From the NCBI GenBank assembly GCA_903881505.1, contig CAIRTM010000069.1:1-58226 (forward strand): a stretch of DNA of 58,226 nt. The letters are read 5' to 3'. This document shows, piece after piece, positions 12,261-34,322 of the stretch. The notes beneath the pieces are model-generated. The model did no database searches. It worked only from the letters and a program-made list of their open reading frames with translations, and was not told the origin of the DNA. The first letter of the stretch is position 1. Each line of letters begins with the position of its first letter. Source of the stretch: an uncultured delta proteobacterium. GTDB taxonomy: Bacteria > Desulfobacterota > WTBG01 > CAIYCZ01 > CAIRTM01. Both the position numbers and the translations under genes were made by a program.

Positions 12261-13130
12261 ATGCCCCTTGTAATTGACGGCGAACTGTGCGCCCGCTGCG
12301 GATCCTGCATCGGCAACTGCCCCAACCGGGCCATCGTGCGGCAGTCTGACCGGGTCGTCATCACCGGCATGTGCTGCGACTGCGGCGTGTGCGTGCGCTA
12401 CTGTTCAGTGGGCGCAATCGCCATGGGGCCGGTGAAGGCCGAGCGTGACAGCGCGAAACTGTGCTCGCAGCTGAAAGAAAAACTCCGCCTGACGCGGGGC
12501 ATCGCTGCCATGAAATTCTGCGACAGCACGCCTGAGGATGCGGCGGTCGAAGAGGGACCGCAGTTCTGGTGCGCGATCTGCGGCGATATTTTCGACGGCC
12601 AGGGCTCTCCCCTGCTGTTCACCGCATCAGCGAGCATGTGCGGCGGATGCGCCAACATGGGGCTGGGTGCAAAACGCGTGACACGCGAGGAATTCGACGC
12701 GGCGCTCGAGGCCTCGGTCGTCGGCGAGGGCAACCTGTATGCAACGCGCGAGCCCATGACCAAAAACCGCGACGCTTTCCCGCAGTTCAGCCGCATTCAC
12801 CGGGGCATGGTCATCGGCTCGCTCGAGCATATCAGCAGGCCCGACATGGTGCTGTTTCCGGCAACGCCCGAGCAGCTGACCATCGTTTCAACCGCATTCG
12901 CCTTCGAAACCGGCGAGATCGTCACGGGGTACGCGGGCAAGTCGACCTGCCTGATGACGATTCCGGCGATGCTCGAGGCCAACAGGCCCGTGTTCACCGC
13001 CGCCGACCACGGCGGGCGCATGTTCATGCGCCTGAAGGCCCAAGAGCTGCTCATCGGCTTTCCGTTCAGCCTGCTGCCGGGCCTGGCGGCGAATCTCGAC
13101 AAAACCGTCTACGCGCACCACGCTGAGTAG
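12261..13130 (+). CDS. Two-[4Fe-4S] ferredoxin domain fused to DUF169 protein
   Basis: 289 residues. The N-terminus is a bacterial-type ferredoxin: Cys 10, 13, 16, 20 (CARCGSCIGNCP) and Cys 38, 41, 44, 48 (CCDCGVCVRYC). From about residue 60 the protein matches the DUF169 family (COG2043), whose function is unknown. It keeps family-like stretches such as SMCGGCANMGLG and a C-terminal FPFSLLPGL. No signal peptide, so it should be cytoplasmic. The ATG has a strong GGAGG site. It lies 58 bp after potD and may be co-transcribed, but has no obvious link to polyamine transport. A redox role is inferred only from the Fe-S clusters. Confidence 0.8.
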   Translation: MPLVIDGELCARCGSCIGNCPNRAIVRQSDRVVITGMCCDCGVCVRYCSVGAIAMGPVKAERDSAKLCSQLKEKLRLTRGIAAMKFCDSTPEDAAVEEGPQFWCAICGDIFDGQGSPLLFTASASMCGGCANMGLGAKRVTREEFDAALEASVVGEGNLYATREPMTKNRDAFPQFSRIHRGMVIGSLEHISRPDMVLFPATPEQLTIVSTAFAFETGEIVTGYAGKSTCLMTIPAMLEANRPVFTAADHGGRMFMRLKAQELLIGFPFSLLPGLAANLDKTVYAHHAE

Positions 13131-16155: not shown

Positions 16156-17112
16156 TTACTGGCAGTTGTCAGGCGGCATGTCGAGAAAGCGGCTTTCCGT
16201 ATAGATTTCGATCTTGGTGTCGCTTTTGGCGATGCTGCCGTTGATATAGGGGTAGGCGGCAGCGTCACAGTTGGCATAGGCCTCGATCATGGCCGTACCA
16301 TAGCGCTTGACCTCGTTGTTCTTGGTTGAGTCCCAGCCGCCGAACGGCCACTTCAAACAGGCGATGGCGCAGGCCGACGTATAGTAGGACTCAAAGTCGC
16401 AGTGGTCGGCAGCTTTCACGTAAATGCCGTAGGAGGGGCCGGCCGTGTTCTGGAAAATGCCGGTGCCCGCGCCGAAGCTGTTGCAGATGTCGCTCACGCC
16501 GTAGAGCATGACAGAAGGAATCGCAATGCTCTGGGCAATCGTCTCGGAATAGCCGACATCCGTGGGAACCGGATCATAGAGCACCATGACCGCGCAGTCG
16601 AAATTGCCTTCGCCCTGGGCCACGTTCTTGTAGGTCGCGATTTCAGCCGTGTAGCCGCCGGCCGAGTGGCCGCCGAAAATCACCCTGCTGGGGTCGATCT
16701 TTCCGGTCAGGTAATTGCCCGCCGTGGCGCTTCTGAGCACGGCCCAGTTGGCGCAGTCGATCATGTCATTGGAGTCCTTGCCCGTATAGTCGGGGGAAAT
16801 GCCGGTGCGCGAATCGGGCAGGATGACGTTAAAACCGCGGGTTGCCCAGTGCGTTCCGTAGTTGTTCAGGACGTCCTTGCTGCGGGAAAAGCCGTGGCGA
16901 AATACAATCAACGGGCGCATGCCTGCTGCGCTCGTTGTATAAACATAGGTGGAAATCGTTCCCCCGTCCCTGGCGGTTATGCTCTGGCTGTAGCGGGTGG
17001 AGGTGTATGGGCCGTTATTCTCAGGTGCTGCCCAGGCGGTAGCGCTCAGTAGCAGACATGCGCAGGCTGCGATTACCGTGAACTTCATACCCTTTGAAAA
17101 TGTTTTCATCAT
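16156..17112 (-). CDS. Secreted alpha/beta hydrolase (dienelactone-hydrolase/PET-hydrolase-like fold)
   Basis: 318-residue precursor with a Sec signal peptide ending near AWA-A29. The nucleophile elbow is GGHSAGG (Ser150). Likely acid and base are Asp208 (GVSDIC) and His237 (ADHCDF). The oxyanion region is FRHGFSRS (71-78). The layout (signal peptide, GPYTSTRYS start, HG motif, GxSxG, Cys-rich C-terminus) resembles the cutinase/PETase and chlorophyllase-like branches of the family, but the exact substrate is not predictable. Several Cys in the C-terminal half suggest disulfides. Two adjacent ATG codons (17112, 17109) are both possible. Single gene with its own terminator. Confidence 0.8.
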   Translation of the reverse strand: MMKTFSKGMKFTVIAACACLLLSATAWAAPENNGPYTSTRYSQSITARDGGTISTYVYTTSAAGMRPLIVFRHGFSRSKDVLNNYGTHWATRGFNVILPDSRTGISPDYTGKDSNDMIDCANWAVLRSATAGNYLTGKIDPSRVIFGGHSAGGYTAEIATYKNVAQGEGNFDCAVMVLYDPVPTDVGYSETIAQSIAIPSVMLYGVSDICNSFGAGTGIFQNTAGPSYGIYVKAADHCDFESYYTSACAIACLKWPFGGWDSTKNNEVKRYGTAMIEAYANCDAAAYPYINGSIAKSDTKIEIYTESRFLDMPPDNCQ

Positions 17113-24188: not shown

Positions 24189-24803
24189 TTACTTCTTAGC
24201 CCCTGTGCAGGCCTTGATTTCAGGCAGAAATTTCAGTGCGTCTTCAACAATTTTTTCCTTTGTGCGCGGCACCTTCTTGCCGTCGACAAGATCGGCCGCC
24301 TGTACCTGGAAATATCCGGCAACCCTGCCTTTTGATGCCGCTACAAGATCTTTGTGCTTCTGCTGGTATTTTTCCTCGATAAAAGAGTCGGACGTTATAA
24401 AGATAATCACGTCCTTTCCCGCAAAACTGTTGCGCTCGATGAACGTGCGCATGGCAAGGCCGAACTGTGCCGCCCAGATCGGCGTGCTGATGATGAGGCG
24501 GTCATAGGGGGCGAAATCTACAGAGGCTGGCTCAATATCGGTCTGCATGCCCATAAAAATTTTCAGCATGCCTGTTGCCGCCCCAAACCCCTGCCTGCTG
24601 TTCAGGTCCTTGATCTCCCGAATGTCAGCACCTGTCTCCTTTTGAAGGGCCTCACATGCTGCCCTGGTATTGCCGGTCTTGGAATAATAAAGAATCAGCG
24701 TCTTTCCCGGAGCCGGCTGCCCACCGGCAATACACAAACCGCCGGACACGGCAAAACATACTGCGATAATGACTGCGACCGCTGTTTTAACTATTGCTTT
24801 CAT
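24189..24803 (-). CDS. Exported flavodoxin-like protein A
   Basis: 204 residues. An N-terminal Sec signal (VAVIIAVCFAVSGGLCIAGG) precedes a flavodoxin domain with the FMN phosphate loop YYSKTGNTRAACEAL. It is thus predicted to act outside the cytoplasmic membrane, unlike ordinary flavodoxins. It closely resembles protein B at 24829, sharing ALQKE-G-DI, the RTFI region and GRVAGYFQVQA, and the pair looks like a tandem duplication. Flavodoxin folds include HemG protoporphyrinogen oxidase, but specific HemG identity cannot be claimed. A strong AGGAGG precedes ATG 24803. Last gene of the operon. Confidence 0.85.
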   Translation of the reverse strand: MKAIVKTAVAVIIAVCFAVSGGLCIAGGQPAPGKTLILYYSKTGNTRAACEALQKETGADIREIKDLNSRQGFGAATGMLKIFMGMQTDIEPASVDFAPYDRLIISTPIWAAQFGLAMRTFIERNSFAGKDVIIFITSDSFIEEKYQQKHKDLVAASKGRVAGYFQVQAADLVDGKKVPRTKEKIVEDALKFLPEIKACTGAKK

Positions 24804-24828: not shown

Positions 24829-25461
24829 TTACTGTTTCAGTACTGTTTCTATTTCACTGGCGAGTTTGACCGCGTCCTGCGCGATCAGTTCCCGGGAGCG
24901 CACCGTTTTTTCACCGTTTATTTTTTCCGTGGCCGCCACCTGAAAATAGCCGGCGACCCGGCCGCCGGATTGCACCACCATCTTCTCCGTCCTGCTCTGT
25001 GAACCCTTGTTTTCAAAGACATTGGTCGTCGTGAACATAATAACCTTCCTGCCGTCAAATCTGTGCTTTGCAATAAACGTGCGGATTGACGCGGCGGGCC
25101 TGCCCGCCCAGACAGGCGAGCCGATGACCACGGCACCGTACGGGGCAAGGTCGATATGGTCCGGGTCGATTTCGGTATGCGTATTGAACATGGAGCCAAG
25201 CGCAGCGGTGAAAAAACCCCAGCCTCCCGCCCTGCTTTTCAAATCCCTGATCTCAAGGATATCGCAGCCGAGTTCCTTCTGCAGGGCCTCGCATGCAGTT
25301 TTCGTGTTGCCGGTTCTGGAATAATAAACAATCAGTGTTTTCACAGCCGTATCCTCCAGGGCGCAGGCAGGCTGCACATACAGTGCTCCGATACAAACCA
25401 TGATAAAAACCGGGGCAACCACGCACCGCCACATTATAGACGCCGCTTTTCGCTTGTTCAT
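24829..25461 (-). CDS. Exported flavodoxin-like protein B
   Basis: 210 residues, with a signal sequence of about 34 residues (MWRCVVAPVFIMVCIGALYV, then ACALED) and then a flavodoxin domain with YYSRTGNTKTACEAL as the FMN loop. Paralogous to protein A, which follows after 25 bp. The conserved GRVAGYFQVAA and C-terminal INGEKTVRSRELIAQDAVKL region suggest the two arose by duplication. AGGAGA lies 8 nt before ATG 25461. The location in the operon suggests electron delivery to, or oxidation of, an extracytoplasmic tetrapyrrole; this is an inference. Confidence 0.85.
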   Translation of the reverse strand: MNKRKAASIMWRCVVAPVFIMVCIGALYVQPACALEDTAVKTLIVYYSRTGNTKTACEALQKELGCDILEIRDLKSRAGGWGFFTAALGSMFNTHTEIDPDHIDLAPYGAVVIGSPVWAGRPAASIRTFIAKHRFDGRKVIMFTTTNVFENKGSQSRTEKMVVQSGGRVAGYFQVAATEKINGEKTVRSRELIAQDAVKLASEIETVLKQ

Positions 25462-25492: not shown

Positions 25493-25933
25493 TTATGCTG
25501 CTCTGTGTTTTTTGGCACGCATGAGCTTCAGGACAAACTGGCCAAAGTTAATAAGGTAGACCGTGTTGGCGACAATCATCAGAACAACAGTGCCCTGCCG
25601 GCTCCAGCCGAACCAGAAAGCGGCAAGGCAGACGTGGAAGGCAATGAGCGCCGCCAGGTTGCCCACGTCCTCCCAGAAAAATTCACGGCACATAAAATAG
25701 TGCCCGTAGATTTCCTTCTCCCAGAGCATGCCGATAACGGTATTGAGCCAGAGCAGGACGATATTGAGCCAGCACGTGATCAGCGCGCCCGTATAGCCTG
25801 CGCCCGCGGCCAGAAAATACACGGCACAGCAATAGCTTGCAATGATGACCATAAGCTGCAGCATGCTGGCTGCCATCATTGCCCCGGTCAGAGGTGTTGC
25901 GTTGCGCCGGGCCATCTGTTCGGGAGTATACAT
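25493..25933 (-). CDS. BchF-like 3-vinyl (bacterio)chlorophyllide hydratase homologue
   Basis: 146-residue integral membrane protein with four predicted TM segments (about 21-43, 46-68, 92-110, 116-135). It shows the signature layout of the BchF family: YTPEQMARRNATPLT at the N-terminus, WEKEIYGHY (71-79), FFWEDVGNL (85-93), His100, and a C-terminal INFGQFVLKL. BchF adds water to the C3-vinyl of (bacterio)chlorophyllide precursors. No other chlorophyll gene except bciB is nearby, so the substrate here may be another vinyl-bearing tetrapyrrole such as heme or protoporphyrin. AAGAGG precedes ATG 25933. Recognition is from remembered family motifs, not from a search. Confidence 0.72.
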   Translation of the reverse strand: MYTPEQMARRNATPLTGAMMAASMLQLMVIIASYCCAVYFLAAGAGYTGALITCWLNIVLLWLNTVIGMLWEKEIYGHYFMCREFFWEDVGNLAALIAFHVCLAAFWFGWSRQGTVVLMIVANTVYLINFGQFVLKLMRAKKHRAA

Positions 25934-25956
25934 GCTGGTGCCTCTTTTCTGAGTGG

Positions 25957-27180
25957 CTATGCCGGAATTTCGTAGTCTTCCAGAATTTTATAAACGTGCC
26001 GGGGTACCAGCGTACCGAGAAGACCGGGATAATTGAACTTCACATAGTGGTAATTGCGCACCAGGTGCATATCAACGGCATAGCCTGCAAACTCAAGCCC
26101 CTTGGGTCCGGTTTCATACAGCATGTCAGCAATTTCCCGGCCTTCCTTCAGGGACACATCCCTGCCCGGCTTCACCGGCGCAGCATCACGATTTGCAAGG
26201 CGCGGGATGATCTTGTTCGCGTACATGAGAATGCCGGGACGGCGGTCACCGCTGCTGAACTCAGCCGACGTTTCCAGTTCGTCCGCTATCAGGTCGCGCA
26301 GCACCCGGCCTTTTTCCGTTCTGAGGGTAACCCACTGGGGCATTTTCTCCCGGTCAAGCGGCGCGCCGATATAGCCCACGGTGATATCGGCAAGGCTGTT
26401 CATGTAGTCAAAGCAGGCCATGCAGCTCTCGGCAAACACATTGGTTCCGAACAGCTCGCGGGGAAAACTGAAAAACGGGACCTTTTCAATCGATCCGTCC
26501 GCATGGGTGATGTGGCAGGTATAATCCTGCATGTACTCAACATGGCGGGCGGTCCTGTGGGATTTACTCACCCTGCGAAGCATCCACCGGAAACGCCGCG
26601 GGTTGGCGTTGTCCGTGCAGGGGATACCGATGGTGTATATTTCCATATCGCGCAGATATGGATATGCTTCCTGAAAATTACGCAGGTTGTGAATCTGGCA
26701 GGGAGTACCGATCACGAGCAGCTTTTGTATGCCCTCCCTGCAGGCATCCTGAAGAGAGACAAGCGTCGGGGAAAGCACCGGCTTGCTGCCGCCGCCTGCC
26801 AGAATATCCTCTGATGACCGGGCAAGCACCGGCCGCGGGAAGAAGAAATCCTCTCGGCTGCGGTGCAGCGTGACGACGGCTTCTACCAGGCCGGACTCAA
26901 AGGCCTTCTGGGCCATGCGGGTGATGATGCCGGTAAACTGGGTGCGGGGAAGCGGCTTTTTAAGCCGGCCCACAAAGCGCTCACGGCTGATGCCGAAGCG
27001 TAATTCTTCGGTGTCGTCCAGAGAGCGCTCGCGCCCGAACAGGTCGCGCTCCCTGGCGCCCAGCCATCCCGTATTGAAGACGCACGACCGCATGCTTTCC
27101 TTCGCGGGCCATGCATCCGCCATGCACAGGCCGCACAGGCTGCAGAGCTTTTGTCTGAATTGCTCATACTGCATGAACAT
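25957..27180 (-). CDS. bciB: BciB-type ferredoxin-dependent 3,8-divinyl (proto)chlorophyllide 8-vinyl reductase homologue
   Basis: 407 residues of the F420-hydrogenase-beta (FrhB-like) superfamily. It keeps BciB-specific stretches: CSLCGLC near the start, DDTEELRFGIS, QFTGIITRMA, GLVEAVVTL, KPVLSPTL, LLVIGTPCQIHNLR, DGSIEKVPFFSFP and CMACFDYMNSLADITVGYIG. All expected Fe-S Cys are present (13, 16, 19, 33, 161, 188, 253, 256). Known BciB uses two [4Fe-4S] clusters and FAD to reduce the C8-vinyl to ethyl. The frame extends to a GTG at 27216; ATG 27180 or 27174 are better starts because homology begins there. Cytoplasmic; 23 bp before the BchF-like gene. Confidence 0.82.
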   Translation of the reverse strand: MFMQYEQFRQKLCSLCGLCMADAWPAKESMRSCVFNTGWLGARERDLFGRERSLDDTEELRFGISRERFVGRLKKPLPRTQFTGIITRMAQKAFESGLVEAVVTLHRSREDFFFPRPVLARSSEDILAGGGSKPVLSPTLVSLQDACREGIQKLLVIGTPCQIHNLRNFQEAYPYLRDMEIYTIGIPCTDNANPRRFRWMLRRVSKSHRTARHVEYMQDYTCHITHADGSIEKVPFFSFPRELFGTNVFAESCMACFDYMNSLADITVGYIGAPLDREKMPQWVTLRTEKGRVLRDLIADELETSAEFSSGDRRPGILMYANKIIPRLANRDAAPVKPGRDVSLKEGREIADMLYETGPKGLEFAGYAVDMHLVRNYHYVKFNYPGLLGTLVPRHVYKILEDYEIPA

Positions 27181-27237: not shown

Positions 27238-27819
27238 CTACCGGACGGGTGTCTTTTTAAGGAAATCAGCAACCTCGGTGTCGAAGACCTCCTGCGTTTT
27301 GCCGGCCTGGAATCCGTACACGCCTTTTGCTATGAGGCCGCTTTCAGCAACGAGTTCTTCAATGCCTTTCTTCGTAAAGCCCGCCAGGGGGCCGCCGGAC
27401 GTGGTAAAAACATACACCTCCGATCCGTCGGGTATGACCTCCTCGATGAAAAACCTTCCCGGAGCGCTCAGCTGCATGAGATAGACGGGTGCAACGACAA
27501 TGATGGGGCTGTAGTCCTGTAATTTCTTCTCGAACGGCTTCTGCCTGTCATCGCCCCAGAACCACTGCTCGCCGATAATGGTAAAAATTCCCCGGCCCTT
27601 CTCCGACGGTATCTCGGCGACTTCAGCGTCAAGGTGTTTGCCCAACGCTTTTGCCACCATGCGTGCATTGCCCGTGCGGGAATAGTAGGCCACCAGAGGC
27701 TTTTTTGCGCCGGGCGCGGACTGGTCATCGCTGCCGGCAGCACTGGCGCTGCCGGCACCCGTCACAAGCACCATGAGAGCAAACATCACAACTGCGTTAC
27801 TACATGTTTTCTTCAGCAT
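27238..27819 (-). CDS. Exported flavodoxin-like protein C
   Basis: 193 residues. The signal peptide ends around SASAAGS (25-31); the flavodoxin domain has YYSRTGNARMVAKAL as FMN loop and VYVFTTSGGPLAGFTKKG as the second flavin loop. It is more distant from proteins A and B and resembles the Flavodoxin_4-type family more closely. It lies between the ferrochelatase-like and bciB genes. A good AAGGAAGG site precedes ATG 27819. Being exported, it may exchange electrons with the membrane polyferredoxin or the anchored ferrochelatase homologue (inference). Confidence 0.83.
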   Translation of the reverse strand: MLKKTCSNAVVMFALMVLVTGAGSASAAGSDDQSAPGAKKPLVAYYSRTGNARMVAKALGKHLDAEVAEIPSEKGRGIFTIIGEQWFWGDDRQKPFEKKLQDYSPIIVVAPVYLMQLSAPGRFFIEEVIPDGSEVYVFTTSGGPLAGFTKKGIEELVAESGLIAKGVYGFQAGKTQEVFDTEVADFLKKTPVR

Positions 27820-27846: not shown

Positions 27847-29262
27847 CTAGAACATCCCCTTTTTTTTCTTCTCCTCCACGAGAATCAGCTGCGGCCACTG
27901 CTCGCCGCGCAGGACCGTGGCCAGGGCGTCGAAAATTCCTTGCGAGATATGGGGACGATAACGGTTCCCCACGGGGCATCCGGCGCTGACGACCCGGGTC
28001 GGTCCGCTCCTGAGTTCGAGCCGGAAGGGCTTGTCAAAATCAGGATAGGGCACCTGGCCCTTATATGCAAAATGCAGGGGCTCGAGCGACTCGGTCGGAT
28101 GCGCGAAAATCGTATCAGTGTTCTCGCTGAGGAAATCGACAAGGATGAACACCACATGGTCGTAGCGGTCCTCGAGCGCCATCTCAAGCGCCTCGAATGT
28201 TGCAAGGCGCTTCTGGCCGGGATCCATGTCTCCGCCGGCGAAATCGGTGTCCGCGAAAATCACGTGCGTGTTCGTTCCGGCGAGTGCAGCTTCTATCTCT
28301 TTCTTAAGGTTGCTGTAATAGACAACGGCAAGTTCGGGATACGGGTCGCCGGGGATTTCGGGAAAGCCGTGGCGCGTCAGGATGACCAGCTTCCGGTCCT
28401 TGACGGGCAGCGGCAGGATCTCGTCTTCAGCCATCTTCACGCATGCCTTCCGGTAGGAGGCATACGCTCCCGGGAACGGCGCGTATACTATTTTTGCCCG
28501 CTCGGCAACCGCGTCCCGTATCTCCTTAAACAGGGCGTTGAACTCCTCAAGCGAGGAATAGACGTGAAAAAGGTCGATGGCCACGATGGTTTCAGCCCCG
28601 GCGTGCACCAGTTCGTCAACGGCCTCCTCGATCGTTTCCGGGTACATGGACAGTGCCCAGCGCATGGGAACGCCGGGAAACTCTTTTGCCAGCATCTGCT
28701 CGATATCCCGGAAAATCGCCCTGTGCTGGTGCATGTAGGGAATCTTGTTGCCCGGCATAATGCCGTAGTATGTTTTCAGGATTTTTATGGAGACTTTTTC
28801 AACGATATCGATGTAGCCGTTTTTATGTTCCTTCCACAGGAAATGTCCCGGCGAGTCTTCATCACGGGGGGCAACCCATTCGTAATCCAGGCTCACATAC
28901 TCCTTGCCCTCTTCATTTTTATCATTGCCGAAACAGTCTATCAGCCGCTTCGGGCCAAATTCCTCCCTGGCCAGGGGGTTGTCGGGGTCAAGCAGCACCG
29001 TGCCCTTGTCGGCCATGATGACGGGCTTTGCGATCGGCGGGAAGGCCGCATTGAATATCTGCGTCATGTAGCGGTTGAAAAAATCAAAATCATAGTGCTC
29101 GGGCTGCCCGAGCGCCACAAGCAGCACGCCCGGTTTCCCCTGCACGGTTGTGTCCTGCATAAGGAAACGCCGGTACTGCATATCGTCCTGCTTCCGTGAA
29201 AAAGCAGCGCCGAGCCCCATCAGGACAATCAACGAGCCTGTGATAACCCAGAACTTTTTCAT
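27847..29262 (-). CDS. Membrane-anchored ferrochelatase homologue with altered active site
   Basis: 471 residues. One N-terminal hydrophobic segment (4-21) should export and anchor the protein. The ferrochelatase pattern is clear: GVLLVALGQPE (45-55), PMRWALSMYPETIEEAV (199-215), and RHGFPEIPGDPYPE (297-310), containing the catalytic His298 and the GDPYP motif. In FLSENTDTI (377-385) the His-x-Glu pair of canonical enzymes (human H341, E343) is Asn381 and Asp383. An insertion of about 100 residues (75-175) is unusual. The reaction may be metal insertion, removal, or only porphyrin binding. Its start overlaps the aldehyde oxidoreductase stop (ATGA). The D. vulgaris periplasmic CbiK is a functional parallel but a different subfamily. 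Confidence 0.78.
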   Translation of the reverse strand: MKKFWVITGSLIVLMGLGAAFSRKQDDMQYRRFLMQDTTVQGKPGVLLVALGQPEHYDFDFFNRYMTQIFNAAFPPIAKPVIMADKGTVLLDPDNPLAREEFGPKRLIDCFGNDKNEEGKEYVSLDYEWVAPRDEDSPGHFLWKEHKNGYIDIVEKVSIKILKTYYGIMPGNKIPYMHQHRAIFRDIEQMLAKEFPGVPMRWALSMYPETIEEAVDELVHAGAETIVAIDLFHVYSSLEEFNALFKEIRDAVAERAKIVYAPFPGAYASYRKACVKMAEDEILPLPVKDRKLVILTRHGFPEIPGDPYPELAVVYYSNLKKEIEAALAGTNTHVIFADTDFAGGDMDPGQKRLATFEALEMALEDRYDHVVFILVDFLSENTDTIFAHPTESLEPLHFAYKGQVPYPDFDKPFRLELRSGPTRVVSAGCPVGNRYRPHISQGIFDALATVLRGEQWPQLILVEEKKKKGMF

Positions 29263-31157
29263 GCCATGCCCCCCTTTCCCGAAGAGAGGATTGTGCGCAT
29301 GTCTTCGCCGATGTCGGGCAGGTCGAGCGCATACAGCCTTTCGGGAAGCGGGATGCCCGTGGCAATGTCCCAGCCCCGCAGGCGATAGTATTCATCCTTC
29401 ATCGTTTCAAGCATGTCCCGTGTTATGACCATGCCCTTTGAGGGCCCGTCGGGTATGGGTTCGGAAAGAAACCGGTACGGCAGCGTGTCATCCGCGCGCC
29501 GCAGCCCTTCGCGCACGGCAAAGGCGCGGATCACATTCCAGATGCGCTCGGCGGTCACCCTGGCCTGCTCAAGGGTGAGGTCCATGCCGGTAACGGCATT
29601 AAAAATATCAATGCACGGCTTCTTTATTTCCGTGGGCCCCCAGATAGCTTCGGCCAGATGGCACAGGATCATTGAATCCGTGAGAATATTAAGATGGTTG
29701 ACGTTAATGATGTACTGAGGCTTGCCCTCAACAGTCTCGCGCGGCACGTATCCGGCGCGCTCACCCGTCGGCCGCCCGTCATGATGGGAGGCTCCCCGCG
29801 GCCCGGTTGCGTACCCGAGAGCGAACCCCGGAAGACCGCGGGCCGAATGCCCGGGGAAGGTCATGCCCTTGTTCTGCATGGCAAAGTCGGAAGCGTTCCC
29901 GCCGATCCTTTCGGCAGCGCGCTTGACGCCTTCGGCAAGCAGGTCGCCGATGCCCTCGCGAAGGCCGATTTTATGCACCATGGGCATGATGACCCCCTGA
30001 TTGCCGAACGACAGGTCAAGCCCGCCGGTGTCTTTCTCCGTCAGCAGGCCCTTCTCGCGGGCCTCCATGCTGAAGGCGATGGAAACGCCGGTCTCAACCG
30101 CATCCATGCCCAGATCGTCGCAGAGCCGTTCGGCCGCGGCCACAATCTCGATCGAGTCGTTTTCGACCATGGAACCCAGGGCGAAGATATTTTCATACTC
30201 CGGGCCCTCGACCTCGGAGCCCTTATAGGGCCCGTCGGACACCACGGTATACTTGCTGCAGCCGATCGGGCAGGCGAAGCATGATTTGTGGCGCACGAAT
30301 ATCTTCTCGCGCAGGGTTTCGGCGCACAGTCCCTGGGCTCCGTCGAAGGTCTCCCGCTGCCAGTTGCGGCTGCCGAAAACCCCGAGGCTGTTATTGGCAT
30401 TCACCAGCACGGGCGTTCCGAAATTGGCAAGGACCTGGCCGGTCGTCGGGTTGCTGCGCATGATGCTGATCAGCTCCTGTGTGACTCTCAGCGTGGCCTC
30501 CATGTCGTCGACCGCAAGGCTGCCGGTGCCGCGCACGGCGATGCCCTTGAATTTTTTGGACCCCAGGACCGCTCCGATCCCGCCCCGGCCGAGGGCCCGG
30601 CCCCCGACGATCACCGAGGCAAAGCGCACCATGCGCTCTCCCGCGGGGCCGATGACCGCGCTCTGCACCGCCTCATCGCCGCTGTCGATCTTGATAAGCT
30701 CATGCGTGCGGTACGTCATCTCGCCCCAGAGGTGCGCTGCGCTGCGCAGCTCGACGCCCGTGTTGCTGATAAACAGGTACACCGGCTTATCGCTCGCGCC
30801 CTCGATCACCACGCCGTCGTAGCCCGCGTATTTAAGTTCGGCGCCGAAGCAGCCGCCCGCGGACGAGTGGAAAAACCCGCCGGTCAGCGGCGATTTCGTG
30901 TACACGCCGATACGGCTGCCCGTGGGCGCGATGGTGCCGGCAAGCGGTCCGGCCAGGAATATGACCTTGTTGCGGTGCGACAGGGGGTCAATGCCGGGAT
31001 CGAGCTCATCGTAGAGCATGCGCGCGGCGAGGCCTGCGCCGCCGATGTATTTGAGCAGCTGGGCATTGGGAGTTTCCTCAACACGGATGGTCCTGCTGGT
31101 CAGGTTCACCCTGAGCAGTTTATGCGTATAGCCTTTGTATAATTTAGCGCGGCTCAT
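29259..31157 (-). CDS. Tungsten aldehyde ferredoxin oxidoreductase (AOR) family protein
   Basis: 632 residues, cytoplasmic, no signal peptide. It shows the AOR [4Fe-4S] ligands Cys293, 296, 300 (CFACPIGC) and Cys499 (SMILCHLA). It also has N-terminal tungstopterin-binding stretches (AGPLAGTIAPTGSRIGVYTKSP; GRALGRGGIGAVLGSKKFKG; shown here as separate pieces). AOR enzymes oxidise aldehydes to acids and reduce ferredoxin, or run in reverse; related BamB-type members reduce aromatic rings. The start overlaps the polyferredoxin stop by ATGA, and its stop overlaps the ferrochelatase-like start, so the three are translationally coupled. The substrate is unknown, and oxidation of a tetrapyrrole side chain is only a guess. 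Confidence 0.92.
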   Translation of the reverse strand: MSRAKLYKGYTHKLLRVNLTSRTIRVEETPNAQLLKYIGGAGLAARMLYDELDPGIDPLSHRNKVIFLAGPLAGTIAPTGSRIGVYTKSPLTGGFFHSSAGGCFGAELKYAGYDGVVIEGASDKPVYLFISNTGVELRSAAHLWGEMTYRTHELIKIDSGDEAVQSAVIGPAGERMVRFASVIVGGRALGRGGIGAVLGSKKFKGIAVRGTGSLAVDDMEATLRVTQELISIMRSNPTTGQVLANFGTPVLVNANNSLGVFGSRNWQRETFDGAQGLCAETLREKIFVRHKSCFACPIGCSKYTVVSDGPYKGSEVEGPEYENIFALGSMVENDSIEIVAAAERLCDDLGMDAVETGVSIAFSMEAREKGLLTEKDTGGLDLSFGNQGVIMPMVHKIGLREGIGDLLAEGVKRAAERIGGNASDFAMQNKGMTFPGHSARGLPGFALGYATGPRGASHHDGRPTGERAGYVPRETVEGKPQYIINVNHLNILTDSMILCHLAEAIWGPTEIKKPCIDIFNAVTGMDLTLEQARVTAERIWNVIRAFAVREGLRRADDTLPYRFLSEPIPDGPSKGMVITRDMLETMKDEYYRLRGWDIATGIPLPERLYALDLPDIGEDMRTILSSGKGGMA

Positions 31158-32746
31158 GCTGCTTCTCCTTTTTTCGCACCGTTCTGCCGGGCCGCGTTGA
31201 TATCACAGGCCGGACACCCCGAGGGATACGCTCCGCAGGGTGTCGGACACGGCGGGGGCGTTTTGGAAAACGGGTTCAGCTTCGCAAACAATTTTTTTAT
31301 GGCGCCGGGCCGCTTCGGCTCCAGCCCCTTTCTGGCGCCGTCCTTGTCCCAGATGATGACCCGGGCGGGGCACACCTTGAGGCAGCGCGGGTCACCGCCG
31401 CAGGCATCGCAGGTGTTTTTCAATTTCGGCACGGGTATCTCCGGGGTGCCTTCCATCTCGATCTGTATGTTCGAGCGGGAGGGGTCGAACACGCCGAGCC
31501 TGCCGCCCGAGCAGGCGAGCTCGCACAGCCGGCAGCCGATGCAGCGCTCGGGAATGACATTGATCCGCCGTATCTTCTTCTGGAAAACGCCGTGGGGGCA
31601 GGTGTCGCGGCATTCGTAGCACAGGTTGCAGTTTACCGGCACCTCGCCGATCGCACGGATTGAAAGTTCCGCCTCTCCTTCAGGAACGGACTGGAACTGG
31701 AAGCCCATGACGCAGCGCTTTTCGGGCTCGCAGTCAGGGCAGACCCTGCAGCGGTCGGTCTTGAAGGGCACGCGGTACAGGGCCGGCTGGCCCAGGGTCA
31801 CCCGGTACCCGATGTACCAGCAGAAATAGCGGCAGTAGATGCGGTAGGCGAACAGCAGCGATCCCAGGAACATGCCGTTGGTCAGCACCTTGGTCCAGAC
31901 CATGGGCTTCCACAGTGAAGTCCAGTCCGGGTCGCGCATCATCTCCGCGGACGAGGCCAGCTGAAACACCCGTTCAAAGGTATATATCACGATGATCATG
32001 ACAACCATGGTGACCGGCACGTAAATCCTGTTGATCTGCGACTTGAATTTGTCGGTAAGCTTGATGCCCGTGAAACTATAAAACCGCATGATGGAGTCCT
32101 GCAGCGTGCCCACCGGGCACATCCAGCCGCAAAACCAGCGGCCGATGAAAAAAGGAAGTACGAGCGAGCCGAGCAGCATGGCCAGAAACCAGAAAAAAAG
32201 CTCGGGGTTTGTTACGGGCCGGGCCGTCATGCCCGTGGCGAAGAGCACGAGGTACCAGCCGAACATGATGCTCTGGCACCAGATCCGCCATTTCTTGGTC
32301 TTAACCGTTTTGCGGGCCCGGGCTTCGGCGTCCGGCGGCGTGCGCAGCAGGCGCACGGCGATGTAGGTTATGTACAGGACCACCGGCAGGGCCAGCAGGA
32401 CCCCCAGGCCGGGAAACAGCTCAAAACCCTTGCCGCCGAACTGCCAGGCGATAATGTCGTTGGTGTCGATCTTCCAGCGCTCCTGATCGCCGGGGAACTG
32501 AAAGGGGAAAAAATTGGAAAATCCCTGGATGGAAAGATATACCCAGAAACGCCCCGAACCTTTGGGCCGCCCGTAGAAATAGTCGGCAAACTGCAGGGTA
32601 AACGCGCCGATGGCGATCATCACGCACAGCCAGTTGGGCACGTAGCCCGCTACGATCCCCAGCACGTACAGGATAAGACCGAGGGAGGACATGTTGCGCA
32701 CGTGGCGCACGAACTCATCGCGGCTTGAAAAGGCTCCCCATGCCAT
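31154..32746 (-). CDS. NapH/NosR-like membrane polyferredoxin
   Basis: 530 residues with about six to seven TM segments in the first 310 residues. It has the NapH-type cluster motif FCGWMCPVGTLQD (Cys206, 210) and a variant second motif CRYFCW (305-310) lacking the usual Pro. The C-terminal half has three ferredoxin-type Cys groups: 373/376/379/383, 402/405/408/412 and 446/449/455/459, plus CRVCPDC (333-339). A Cys-rich tail (CPTPCGAYPSGCPACD) ends the protein. It should carry electrons between membrane quinol or exported redox partners and cytoplasmic ferredoxin-type proteins. It is coupled to the AOR gene by ATGA and lies 1 bp from the upstream membrane-protein gene. Confidence 0.88.
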   Translation of the reverse strand: MAWGAFSSRDEFVRHVRNMSSLGLILYVLGIVAGYVPNWLCVMIAIGAFTLQFADYFYGRPKGSGRFWVYLSIQGFSNFFPFQFPGDQERWKIDTNDIIAWQFGGKGFELFPGLGVLLALPVVLYITYIAVRLLRTPPDAEARARKTVKTKKWRIWCQSIMFGWYLVLFATGMTARPVTNPELFFWFLAMLLGSLVLPFFIGRWFCGWMCPVGTLQDSIMRFYSFTGIKLTDKFKSQINRIYVPVTMVVMIIVIYTFERVFQLASSAEMMRDPDWTSLWKPMVWTKVLTNGMFLGSLLFAYRIYCRYFCWYIGYRVTLGQPALYRVPFKTDRCRVCPDCEPEKRCVMGFQFQSVPEGEAELSIRAIGEVPVNCNLCYECRDTCPHGVFQKKIRRINVIPERCIGCRLCELACSGGRLGVFDPSRSNIQIEMEGTPEIPVPKLKNTCDACGGDPRCLKVCPARVIIWDKDGARKGLEPKRPGAIKKLFAKLNPFSKTPPPCPTPCGAYPSGCPACDINAARQNGAKKGEAA

Positions 32747-32747
32747 G

Positions 32748-33527
32748 TCAGTGCCCTCCCAGGATATAGGGCGCGCGGGTCAGAATAAAATGAAATTCCT
32801 CCGCGGACATGCCGAACCCCATGCGCAGGTAGATGAGCAGCACCGCAAAATTCACCATCTGCAGCTTGAACCACTTCTCACGGGGCACGCCGTTGCGCCG
32901 GAACAGCCGGGCCGCGCACAGGAAGTAGAGGGTAAACCAGGTGTACATGAAGACAATTGATCCGATCCACCAGCCGCGCGCGCTGTCGGGATTGTTGGCC
33001 CTCACCGTGCCGTAGGAGGCAAGCAGGTACGCGTTCTGCTCGGTGATCTCCGTGCCCTTCTCAAAGCCGCCGTAGTCCTGCGCGAGATGCTTGCCCACGA
33101 GCTCATCGGGCGCCTTCTGCTCGATGCGCAGTTCCATGCCGATGTTTTCGCAGAAGAAATCCGACATGAAACCCGTCAGCAGGGCTATCAGGATAAAGCA
33201 CAGCGACCCGATGCGGGCCGCCTTGGCATAGGCCCAGTCATGCAGCACCCACTTATACAAAAGGCCTATAAAAAGCGCGTACAGCACGCCGACGGCCGCG
33301 CCCGAAATCACCCCCAGGAACCGGCCGGTATAGTAGTATTCCTTGCCCGGCAGGTCGCGAAAAAAGCCGGCCAGCCGGATAAAGGCCCCCGGGTACATGA
33401 ACGTGTCAAGCACCCGGTACTTGGCATCCGATGTGCCGAAGGTCTTGCCGAAGAAATACCCGGGGATAATCAGCTCCCACCAGACCGAGCTGCGTGTCCA
33501 GAAATCAAGTCCCTTCATGGTTTTCAT
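32748..33527 (-). CDS. Four-TM membrane protein of unknown family
   Basis: 259 residues, not recognised. Predicted TM segments are about 71-91, 105-124, 187-208 and 222-241, with a 60-residue charged loop (125-185) between the second and third. His and aromatic residues near the membrane edges (HDWAY; WWIGS) could bind heme or quinone, but no motif proves it. The frame is open upstream to 33704; ATG 33527 is chosen because of a GGGGGAG site. It is separated from the polyferredoxin gene by one base, suggesting a partner subunit of that membrane complex. Confidence 0.75.
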   Translation of the reverse strand: MKTMKGLDFWTRSSVWWELIIPGYFFGKTFGTSDAKYRVLDTFMYPGAFIRLAGFFRDLPGKEYYYTGRFLGVISGAAVGVLYALFIGLLYKWVLHDWAYAKAARIGSLCFILIALLTGFMSDFFCENIGMELRIEQKAPDELVGKHLAQDYGGFEKGTEITEQNAYLLASYGTVRANNPDSARGWWIGSIVFMYTWFTLYFLCAARLFRRNGVPREKWFKLQMVNFAVLLIYLRMGFGMSAEEFHFILTRAPYILGGH

Positions 33528-33570: not shown

Positions 33571-34053
33571 TTATTGCACTGCCATGCCGGCAGTCTTATC
33601 AGCCACCGCTTTTTCAAGGATAATCGCCGCAGCCTCGACCGTTGCGAGCAGCAGTTTTTTTTCTGAATGATCGATACCTGCCAGAATTTCGCCGATAATT
33701 TCAAACTGCTCGCCGCGAAACGCCTTGAAACCCGCGCGCCCCCTGGCGGTCAGGCGGATATCGGACATGCGCTTGTCGCTCCGGTTTTTCGAGCGCGCCA
33801 CGTGCCCCATAACCTCAAGCCGGTGCACCAGGTTGTTGACGCTTTGCAGCGACATGCCGAGCACGCGGCTTATTTCCGAGATGTGGACAACGTCCCGCTC
33901 GTTGAAAAAAGAAAGAATCCGCATCTGGGCCACGGACAGCGTGGGGCTTTTCGCTTTCAGGCTTCTGCCGAAGCTCAGGCAGCGGAACATTTTCTGAAAG
34001 TTCACAAACAGTGTTTCGGTCATGTCGGAATGAAACGTCGTATCTGTTTTCAC
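33571..34053 (-). CDS. MarR-family transcriptional regulator
   Basis: 160 residues. Winged helix-turn-helix: the recognition region is ISEISRVLGMSLQSVNNLVHRLE, here split as ISEISRVLGMSLQS and VNNLVHRLEVMG, followed by the wing KNRSDKRMSDIRLTARGR. Flanking helices fit MarR dimerisation. GTG 34053 is the likely start (GGGAGG 7 nt upstream); upstream in-frame ATGs lie inside the promoter. It is the first gene of a ten-gene minus-strand array and probably regulates itself and the tetrapyrrole-related genes. The ligand is unknown; a porphyrin or heme effector would fit the operon. Confidence 0.88.
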   Translation of the reverse strand: MKTDTTFHSDMTETLFVNFQKMFRCLSFGRSLKAKSPTLSVAQMRILSFFNERDVVHISEISRVLGMSLQSVNNLVHRLEVMGHVARSKNRSDKRMSDIRLTARGRAGFKAFRGEQFEIIGEILAGIDHSEKKLLLATVEAAAIILEKAVADKTAGMAVQ

Positions 34054-34088
34054 GGGCGCCCTCCCGGAGTTTGTATTTACTATACATA

Positions 34089-34116
34089 TATATACTATTA
34101 TCCCCCTGCTTGTCAA
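34089..34116 (-). promoter_or_regulatory. Promoter of the marR-led operon
   Basis: On the minus strand, perfect TTGACA (34116-34111) with TATATA at a 16-bp spacing (34094-34089); another TATATA lies at 18 bp. The position is about 35 bp upstream of the GTG start. Confidence 0.75.
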
Positions 34117-34149
34117 CATGTTTGCCATTATTATTAAAGATAATACTAT
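34092..34149. promoter_or_regulatory. Inverted repeat flanking the marR promoter, candidate operator
   Basis: ATACTATTATC (34092-34102) and GATAATACTAT (34139-34149) are inverted copies with 10 of 11 matches, 36 bp apart. They surround the -35 element and overlap the -10 region. Such placement suits autoregulation by the MarR protein. The pairing was found by eye. Confidence 0.5.
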
Positions 34150-34322
34150 AGCCAGCGGCATATTTTATACATAAACGTTTATTAAACTGTACGGCACAGC
34201 GGGGGCGACAGCTGCGGTTCGAAACGGGGGGTATGCGCAGGCGGAACCCGCGCGGATCGAAACGGTCAATGCAGGAACAGCGGCCAGGCCGTCTTCCGCG
34301 AGGATGCGGAACGGCGACTGTC

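Follow-up and report, generated by a model that had tools for sequence, protein, structure and literature searches.

BchF-family and BciB/HCAR-like proteins encoded in a class-wide operon of uncultured Desulfobacterota

A ten-gene operon containing BciB-like and BchF-family genes

The window (the whole 58,226-nucleotide stretch analyzed here) corresponds to one 58-kb contig from a draft genome of 3.16 Mb. This genome is 97% complete and belongs to a small, uncultured class of Desulfobacterota, from which 17 genomes were compared. Homologs of BciB and BchF are encoded by genes 7 and 8 of a ten-gene run on the minus strand, which has the following order:

33571..34161, minus strand: MarR-family regulator, operon gene 1 (MarR_2, E 3e-10), in the same place in relatives
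32748..33524, minus strand: multi-pass membrane protein, adjoining the NapH-like gene in 6 genomes
31154..32746, minus strand: NapH-like membrane polyferredoxin (Fer4_5, Fer4_9, NapH/MauN)
29259..31157, minus strand: AOR-family (aldehyde ferredoxin oxidoreductase) protein (AFOR_N/C; CxxCxxxC motif)
27847..29262, minus strand: ferrochelatase-fold (class II chelatase) protein, predicted to be exported or anchored (PF00762, E 2.4e-10)
27238..27819, minus strand: flavodoxin-like protein with an N-terminal signal or anchor (Flavodoxin_5, weak; hydrophobic N-terminus)
25957..27180, minus strand: BciB/HCAR-family Fe-S flavoprotein, putative tetrapyrrole side-chain reductase, 407 aa (HCAR 5dqr, 254 bits)
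25493..25933, minus strand: BchF-family vinyl hydratase homolog, 146 aa (PF07284; membrane protein of four to five helices)
24829..25461, minus strand: flavodoxin with an N-terminal signal or anchor (Flavodoxin_5; hydrophobic N-terminus)
24189..24803, minus strand: flavodoxin with an N-terminal signal or anchor (Flavodoxin_4/5; hydrophobic N-terminus)

The start of the multi-pass membrane protein (~33524-33527) was set by comparison with a 259-aa relative, and family searches did not assign this protein to any family. The BchF and BciB genes are 23 bp apart on the same strand, which agrees with their description as adjacent in a preliminary description of the window. Because of this spacing, the ten co-directional genes and the conservation in relatives, the pair is not a chance match of open reading frames, and we regard it as confirmed.

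Most of the operon order recurs in five other genomes of the class (G034, G185, G071, G350 and G388), and the arrangement running from the MarR gene through the membrane protein, NapH-like, AOR, chelatase and flavodoxin genes to BciB is kept across several genera. The chelatase gene is found in all 8 genomes that carry the BciB clade. The pair belongs to a class-wide operon that is probably also a regulon. The preliminary description assigned both families correctly and expected no complete bch pathway, so that it holds in outline, but it dealt with the pair; the gene set is larger than this and conserved.

Family relationships of the two proteins

The window BciB frame runs from an ATG at 27180 to a stop at 25957 and encodes FrhB_FdhB N- and C-terminal domains. 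Its best match in the PDB is HCAR, the 7-hydroxymethyl chlorophyll a reductase (5dqr), at 254 bits versus 61 for FrhB, which rules out an ordinary FrhB as its identity. The preliminary description held that all eight Fe-S cysteines are retained; in the 407-aa protein these are residues 13, 16, 19, 33, 161, 188, 253 and 256 (columns 25-268 if counted from a GTG start), and all eight are invariant in 17 sequences drawn from the class, phototroph BciB and HCAR. Class sequences share these cysteines and 58 invariant positions with both BciB (an 8-vinyl reductase) and HCAR, but they form a third group, at 34-41% identity to phototroph BciB (Chloroflexota and Thiodictyon) and to HCAR alike, and their gene sits in an operon with a chelatase, an AOR and flavodoxins. 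Identity within the class is 45-74%, and the window protein is 39-41% identical to BciB of Chloroflexota; judged by pairwise identity, the class proteins stand apart from phototroph BciB. The clade occurs in 8 of 395 genomes of the phylum, all 8 in this class. Because the distances to phototroph BciB and to HCAR are about equal, reduction of a vinyl group by the BciB-like enzyme is not assured.

The 146-aa protein, for which a PF07284 search had been proposed, matches this family at 103.1 bits (cut-off 25; E 1.6e-29) over nearly its full length, with residues 2-138 aligned to model positions 1-138/139. Like known BchF, the 3-vinyl (bacterio)chlorophyllide hydratase, it has four to five helices and keeps the WEKE..FFWED..N motif, and W71, E72, W87, E88, D89, N92 and G68 are kept in 5 of 5 class sequences. 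It differs from known BchF in its non-phototrophic host, in missing the TIGR02020 equivalog cut-off (89.2 versus 101.35 bits) and in lacking K57 and H99, two residues that phototroph BchF nearly always keeps. An AlphaFold model of the protein (pLDDT 92) gave no significant match in a fold search. The two best matches, neither of them significant (TM 0.61, E 0.08), were CcmC chains of the heme-handling CcmABCD complex; CcmC likewise handles vinyl-bearing heme in the membrane.

A genome-wide search found one BchF in the window genome, and BchF occurs in 4 of the 17 class genomes, all from one family. Most BciB-bearing relatives have no BchF, and across most of the class the gene is either absent or located elsewhere; BchF is thus an add-on to the operon. 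In G185 it adjoins an AOR gene, an SDR gene and a gene of the MarR cluster associated with a nitrogenase-like reductase operon (see below), and in G388 it adjoins a homologous flavodoxin gene. The closest named relatives of BchF beyond the class are for the most part from Chloroflexota. However, in a midpoint-rooted tree the class sequences and one Myxococcota sequence form a supported, deep group on long branches, separate from Chloroflexota and two proteobacterial sequences. This tree sets the class clade apart from Chloroflexota; it covers the class, Myxococcota, Chloroflexota and two proteobacterial sequences, a narrower sample than the one proposed in the preliminary description, which took in Chlorobi. 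The Myxococcota relative (L064:3809-4246) lies on a 5.4-kb contig with no recognizable bch gene adjoining it. Weak PF07284 matches (~20-22 bits, under the cut-off) were also seen in ~240-aa frames from two other Desulfobacterota families (L005-L009).

It is improbable that the two proteins have been exapted for a non-tetrapyrrole substrate. On this reading, BchF would be an unrelated membrane enzyme, and the BciB-like protein would belong to the wider FrhB fold and act as a flavin reductase that uses ferredoxin. FrhB_FdhB domains are employed in many reactions, and the patchy occurrence and long branches of BchF would agree with such a change of role. Against this, the specific resemblance of the window BciB is to HCAR/BciB, not to FrhB, and a single operon unites two independent families of porphyrin enzymes with a ferrochelatase fold.

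BchF has been stated to occur "only and exclusively" in bacteria that make bacteriochlorophyll a, and has on this basis been treated as direct evidence of how that type of photosynthesis originated (PMC4783071). A BchF clade in non-phototrophic Desulfobacterota, beside a BciB/HCAR clade, ends the claimed exclusivity. On this evidence, some relatives of chlorophyll-branch enzymes may serve a cofactor at the heme or porphyrin level, and chlorophyll-type chemistry outside photosynthesis becomes a testable question.

Searches for a chlorophyll pathway

Profile searches of the window found no bch or reaction-center gene beyond BchF and BciB, as the preliminary description had it. Photo_RC (type II reaction center) was found in none of the 17 class genomes, and BchE, BchM and BchL had no match over the family cut-off in any of them. 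The window BchF is therefore not accompanied by a bacteriochlorophyll a pathway, and a complete bch pathway elsewhere in the genome was rejected on the same searches. A genome-wide search had been suggested at the outset; it bore out the lack of a complete pathway but also retrieved, elsewhere in the genome, a BchH-like chelatase over the TIGR02025 cut-off.

These searches leave very little room for the idea that the genes came from phototrophic Chloroflexota and are left over from, or still belong to, a hidden chlorophyll pathway. In its favor are the mainly chloroflexotal named relatives of BchF and the BchH-like and DPOR/COR-like genes in the genome. Set against it, together with the missing type II reaction center and the lack of BchE, BchM and BchL matches over the cut-off, are the deep clade that BchF shares with a single Myxococcota sequence, the distance between class and phototroph BciB, and an operon too well conserved to resemble gene debris; the BchF tree and the BciB distances likewise disfavor a recent transfer from Chloroflexota. 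Contamination by a phototroph was also rejected, as the operon shares its 58-kb contig with housekeeping genes, glyQS, mutS, rpoD and dnaG among them, its genes have a GC content of 51-62% (60% for the window) and relatives have the same operon.

Incomplete bch gene sets have been described in Binatota, where bchF and bciB were reported absent (PMC8262859). Binatota are likewise non-phototrophs with several bch-like genes; in the class studied here, by contrast, bchF and bciB are present and operonic. We found no description of this gene set in the open-licence literature.

Chelatases, a nitrogenase-like reductase and a proposed tetrapyrrole pathway

The operon chelatase has the ferrochelatase fold with its catalytic His and Glu. 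Its model (pLDDT 85) matches ferrochelatases in Foldseek (E 1e-10, probability 1.00); the top 44 matches are ferrochelatases, followed by the periplasmic CbiK of D. vulgaris (9e-6). The TRHGFP and SENTDT motifs are kept, and H298 and E380 are invariant. While HemH/CpfC ferrochelatase and D. vulgaris CbiK have this fold and these His and Glu motifs in common with the operon protein, the latter is longer (471 aa), carries an anchor at its N-terminus, where paralogs show a lipobox-like cysteine, and shows 14% identity. It falls under the hemH equivalog cut-off, a phmmer search against the PDB gave no match and a plasmid search for it found none. A ferrochelatase-fold protein in the operon fits a substrate at the heme or porphyrin level, the kind suggested in the preliminary description. 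However, the export predicted from sequence for the chelatase and flavodoxins would separate them from the cytoplasmic BciB, which weighs against the pathway proposed below.

The BchH/CobN-like chelatase of the window genome (G000 C102, L090:9655-15686) scores 866.9 with TIGR02025 (cut-off 829), a BchH model that also matches in non-phototroph controls. It forms its own clade beside BchH, and is accompanied by AAA+ and VWA subunits. BchH-like genes adjoin nikR in G000, G104 and G034, with loci L090, L098 and L101 as examples, and a NicO-like permease gene in G071 and G274; the nikR neighbor hints at a nickel-linked chelatase. We did not take magnesium chelation as the defining step, on account of these neighbors and of two BciB-bearing genomes (G160 and G253) that have no BchH-like match.

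Most of the class also carries a nitrogenase-like operon, which in the window genome is located as follows:

L091:920-6244 (G000 C135): nitrogenase-like operon encoding two NifH-like proteins, an N-like subunit and a B-like subunit with PCP_red

Like DPOR (BchLNB) and COR (BchXYZ), this reductase has two NifDK-like subunits, a NifH-like partner and PCP_red. Its N-like subunit keeps the three cysteines (C36, C61 and C119), and C42 of the B-like subunit aligns with the BchB Asp and the BchZ Cys at the fourth-ligand position, so that the ligand set is DPOR/COR-like. It differs in having ~20% identity to DPOR and COR alike, two NifH paralogs and a Cys in place of the DPOR Asp, and it falls under the equivalog cut-offs for BchL, BchN and BchB (216/345, 59/420 and 154/490 bits). 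For its NifH-like proteins, the top-scoring models are those of NifH and CfbC. The window genome is unlikely to encode a further iron protein, of BchX or nitrogenase type, because this pair accounts for all its strong NifH-family matches.

The reductase operon adjoins an AOR gene and a gene of one MarR cluster, which lies beside it at 10 loci; members of that cluster also neighbor BchH-like genes in four genomes and, in G185, BchF-AOR. FeoB is near one BchF, one BchH and one reductase locus, in three genomes, and BchF and BchH loci also have DtxR/FeoA close by. The genes for the BciB-like protein and for the reductase are on different contigs, and their co-occurrence is not significant (p 0.13, kinship ignored); of the co-occurrence tests among gene sets, which likewise ignore kinship, only that of BciB with the operon chelatase was significant. 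The operon, the reductase and the BchH-like sets may form one pathway.

We propose, with a probability of about one half, that the BciB-like and BchF proteins modify side chains in a pathway of this class that tailors tetrapyrroles anaerobically and outside photosynthesis, and that probably remodels a vinyl-bearing heme or porphyrin. The basis for this is the two families, their conserved operon, the cluster and active-site motifs, and a genome with no recognizable chlorophyll pathway or type II reaction center. The substrate would be a vinyl-bearing porphyrin at the heme or protoporphyrin level. With reduced ferredoxin, the BciB-like enzyme would reduce a side chain, either a vinyl or, as in HCAR, a hydroxylated group, and BchF, where present, would hydrate the other vinyl to a hydroxyethyl group. 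Low-potential electrons may come from the AOR, the ferrochelatase-fold protein would insert or remove a metal outside the cytoplasm, and ring reduction to a chlorin-type product may fall to the separate nitrogenase-like complex.

The proposal is favored by the family assignments, the eight invariant cysteines, the class-restricted BciB clade, the conserved operon, the ferrochelatase fold of its chelatase with His and Glu motifs, and the presence of the operon chelatase in 8 of 8 BciB genomes; the reductase operon in the same genome with AOR and MarR-cluster neighbors, the BchF neighbors in G185 and G388 and FeoB near the loci are also in its favor. It is weakened by the absence of BchF from most BciB-bearing relatives, by the long branch, TIGR02020 score and lost K57 and H99 of the window BchF, and by the link between BciB and the reductase, which is one of non-significant co-occurrence.

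The operon might instead serve catabolism or salvage, in which external heme or chlorophyll derivatives are imported, stripped of metal outside the cytoplasm and reduced or hydrated at their side chains for breakdown or for recovery of iron or nickel. We consider this unlikely, though it is the strongest of the alternatives. The predicted export of the chelatase and flavodoxins, the OprB-family porin gene that follows the operon in G034 and the FeoB and DtxR/FeoA genes close to BchF and BchH loci would suit such a role. Bacteroidota are known to have a CobN-like heme dechelatase, HmuS (PMC12583661), which the BchH-like protein matches at 364 bits; however, this protein is nearer to ChlH (577 bits) and is accompanied by motor subunits, a nitrogenase-like, ATP-driven step is costly, and a ring-opening enzyme was not found in the operon. 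We prefer building over salvage, given that the reductase is driven by ATP and the BchH-like chelatase has motor subunits.

Taken together, these data point to the remodeling of a heme- or porphyrin-type molecule by a pathway not yet described. A fuller version of the tailoring proposal is more tentative, and we consider it less likely than not: that this anaerobic pathway makes a chlorin-type tetrapyrrole with modified vinyls for a non-photosynthetic purpose, by means of the BciB/HCAR-like, BchF and ferrochelatase-fold proteins and the COR/DPOR-like, ATP-driven reductase. A BchH-like chelatase, linked to nickel or iron, might take part as well.

Two further genes in the window were noted. An alpha/beta hydrolase at 16156-17112 (minus strand), ~7 kb from the operon, matches the Pfam Chlorophyllase family at 29.6 bits (cut-off 26) and may be a generic hydrolase. 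A DUF169 protein is encoded at 12261-13130 (plus strand), adjoining an ABC transporter, and a second DUF169 protein (L011:8687-9487) is encoded immediately beside BchF in G185.
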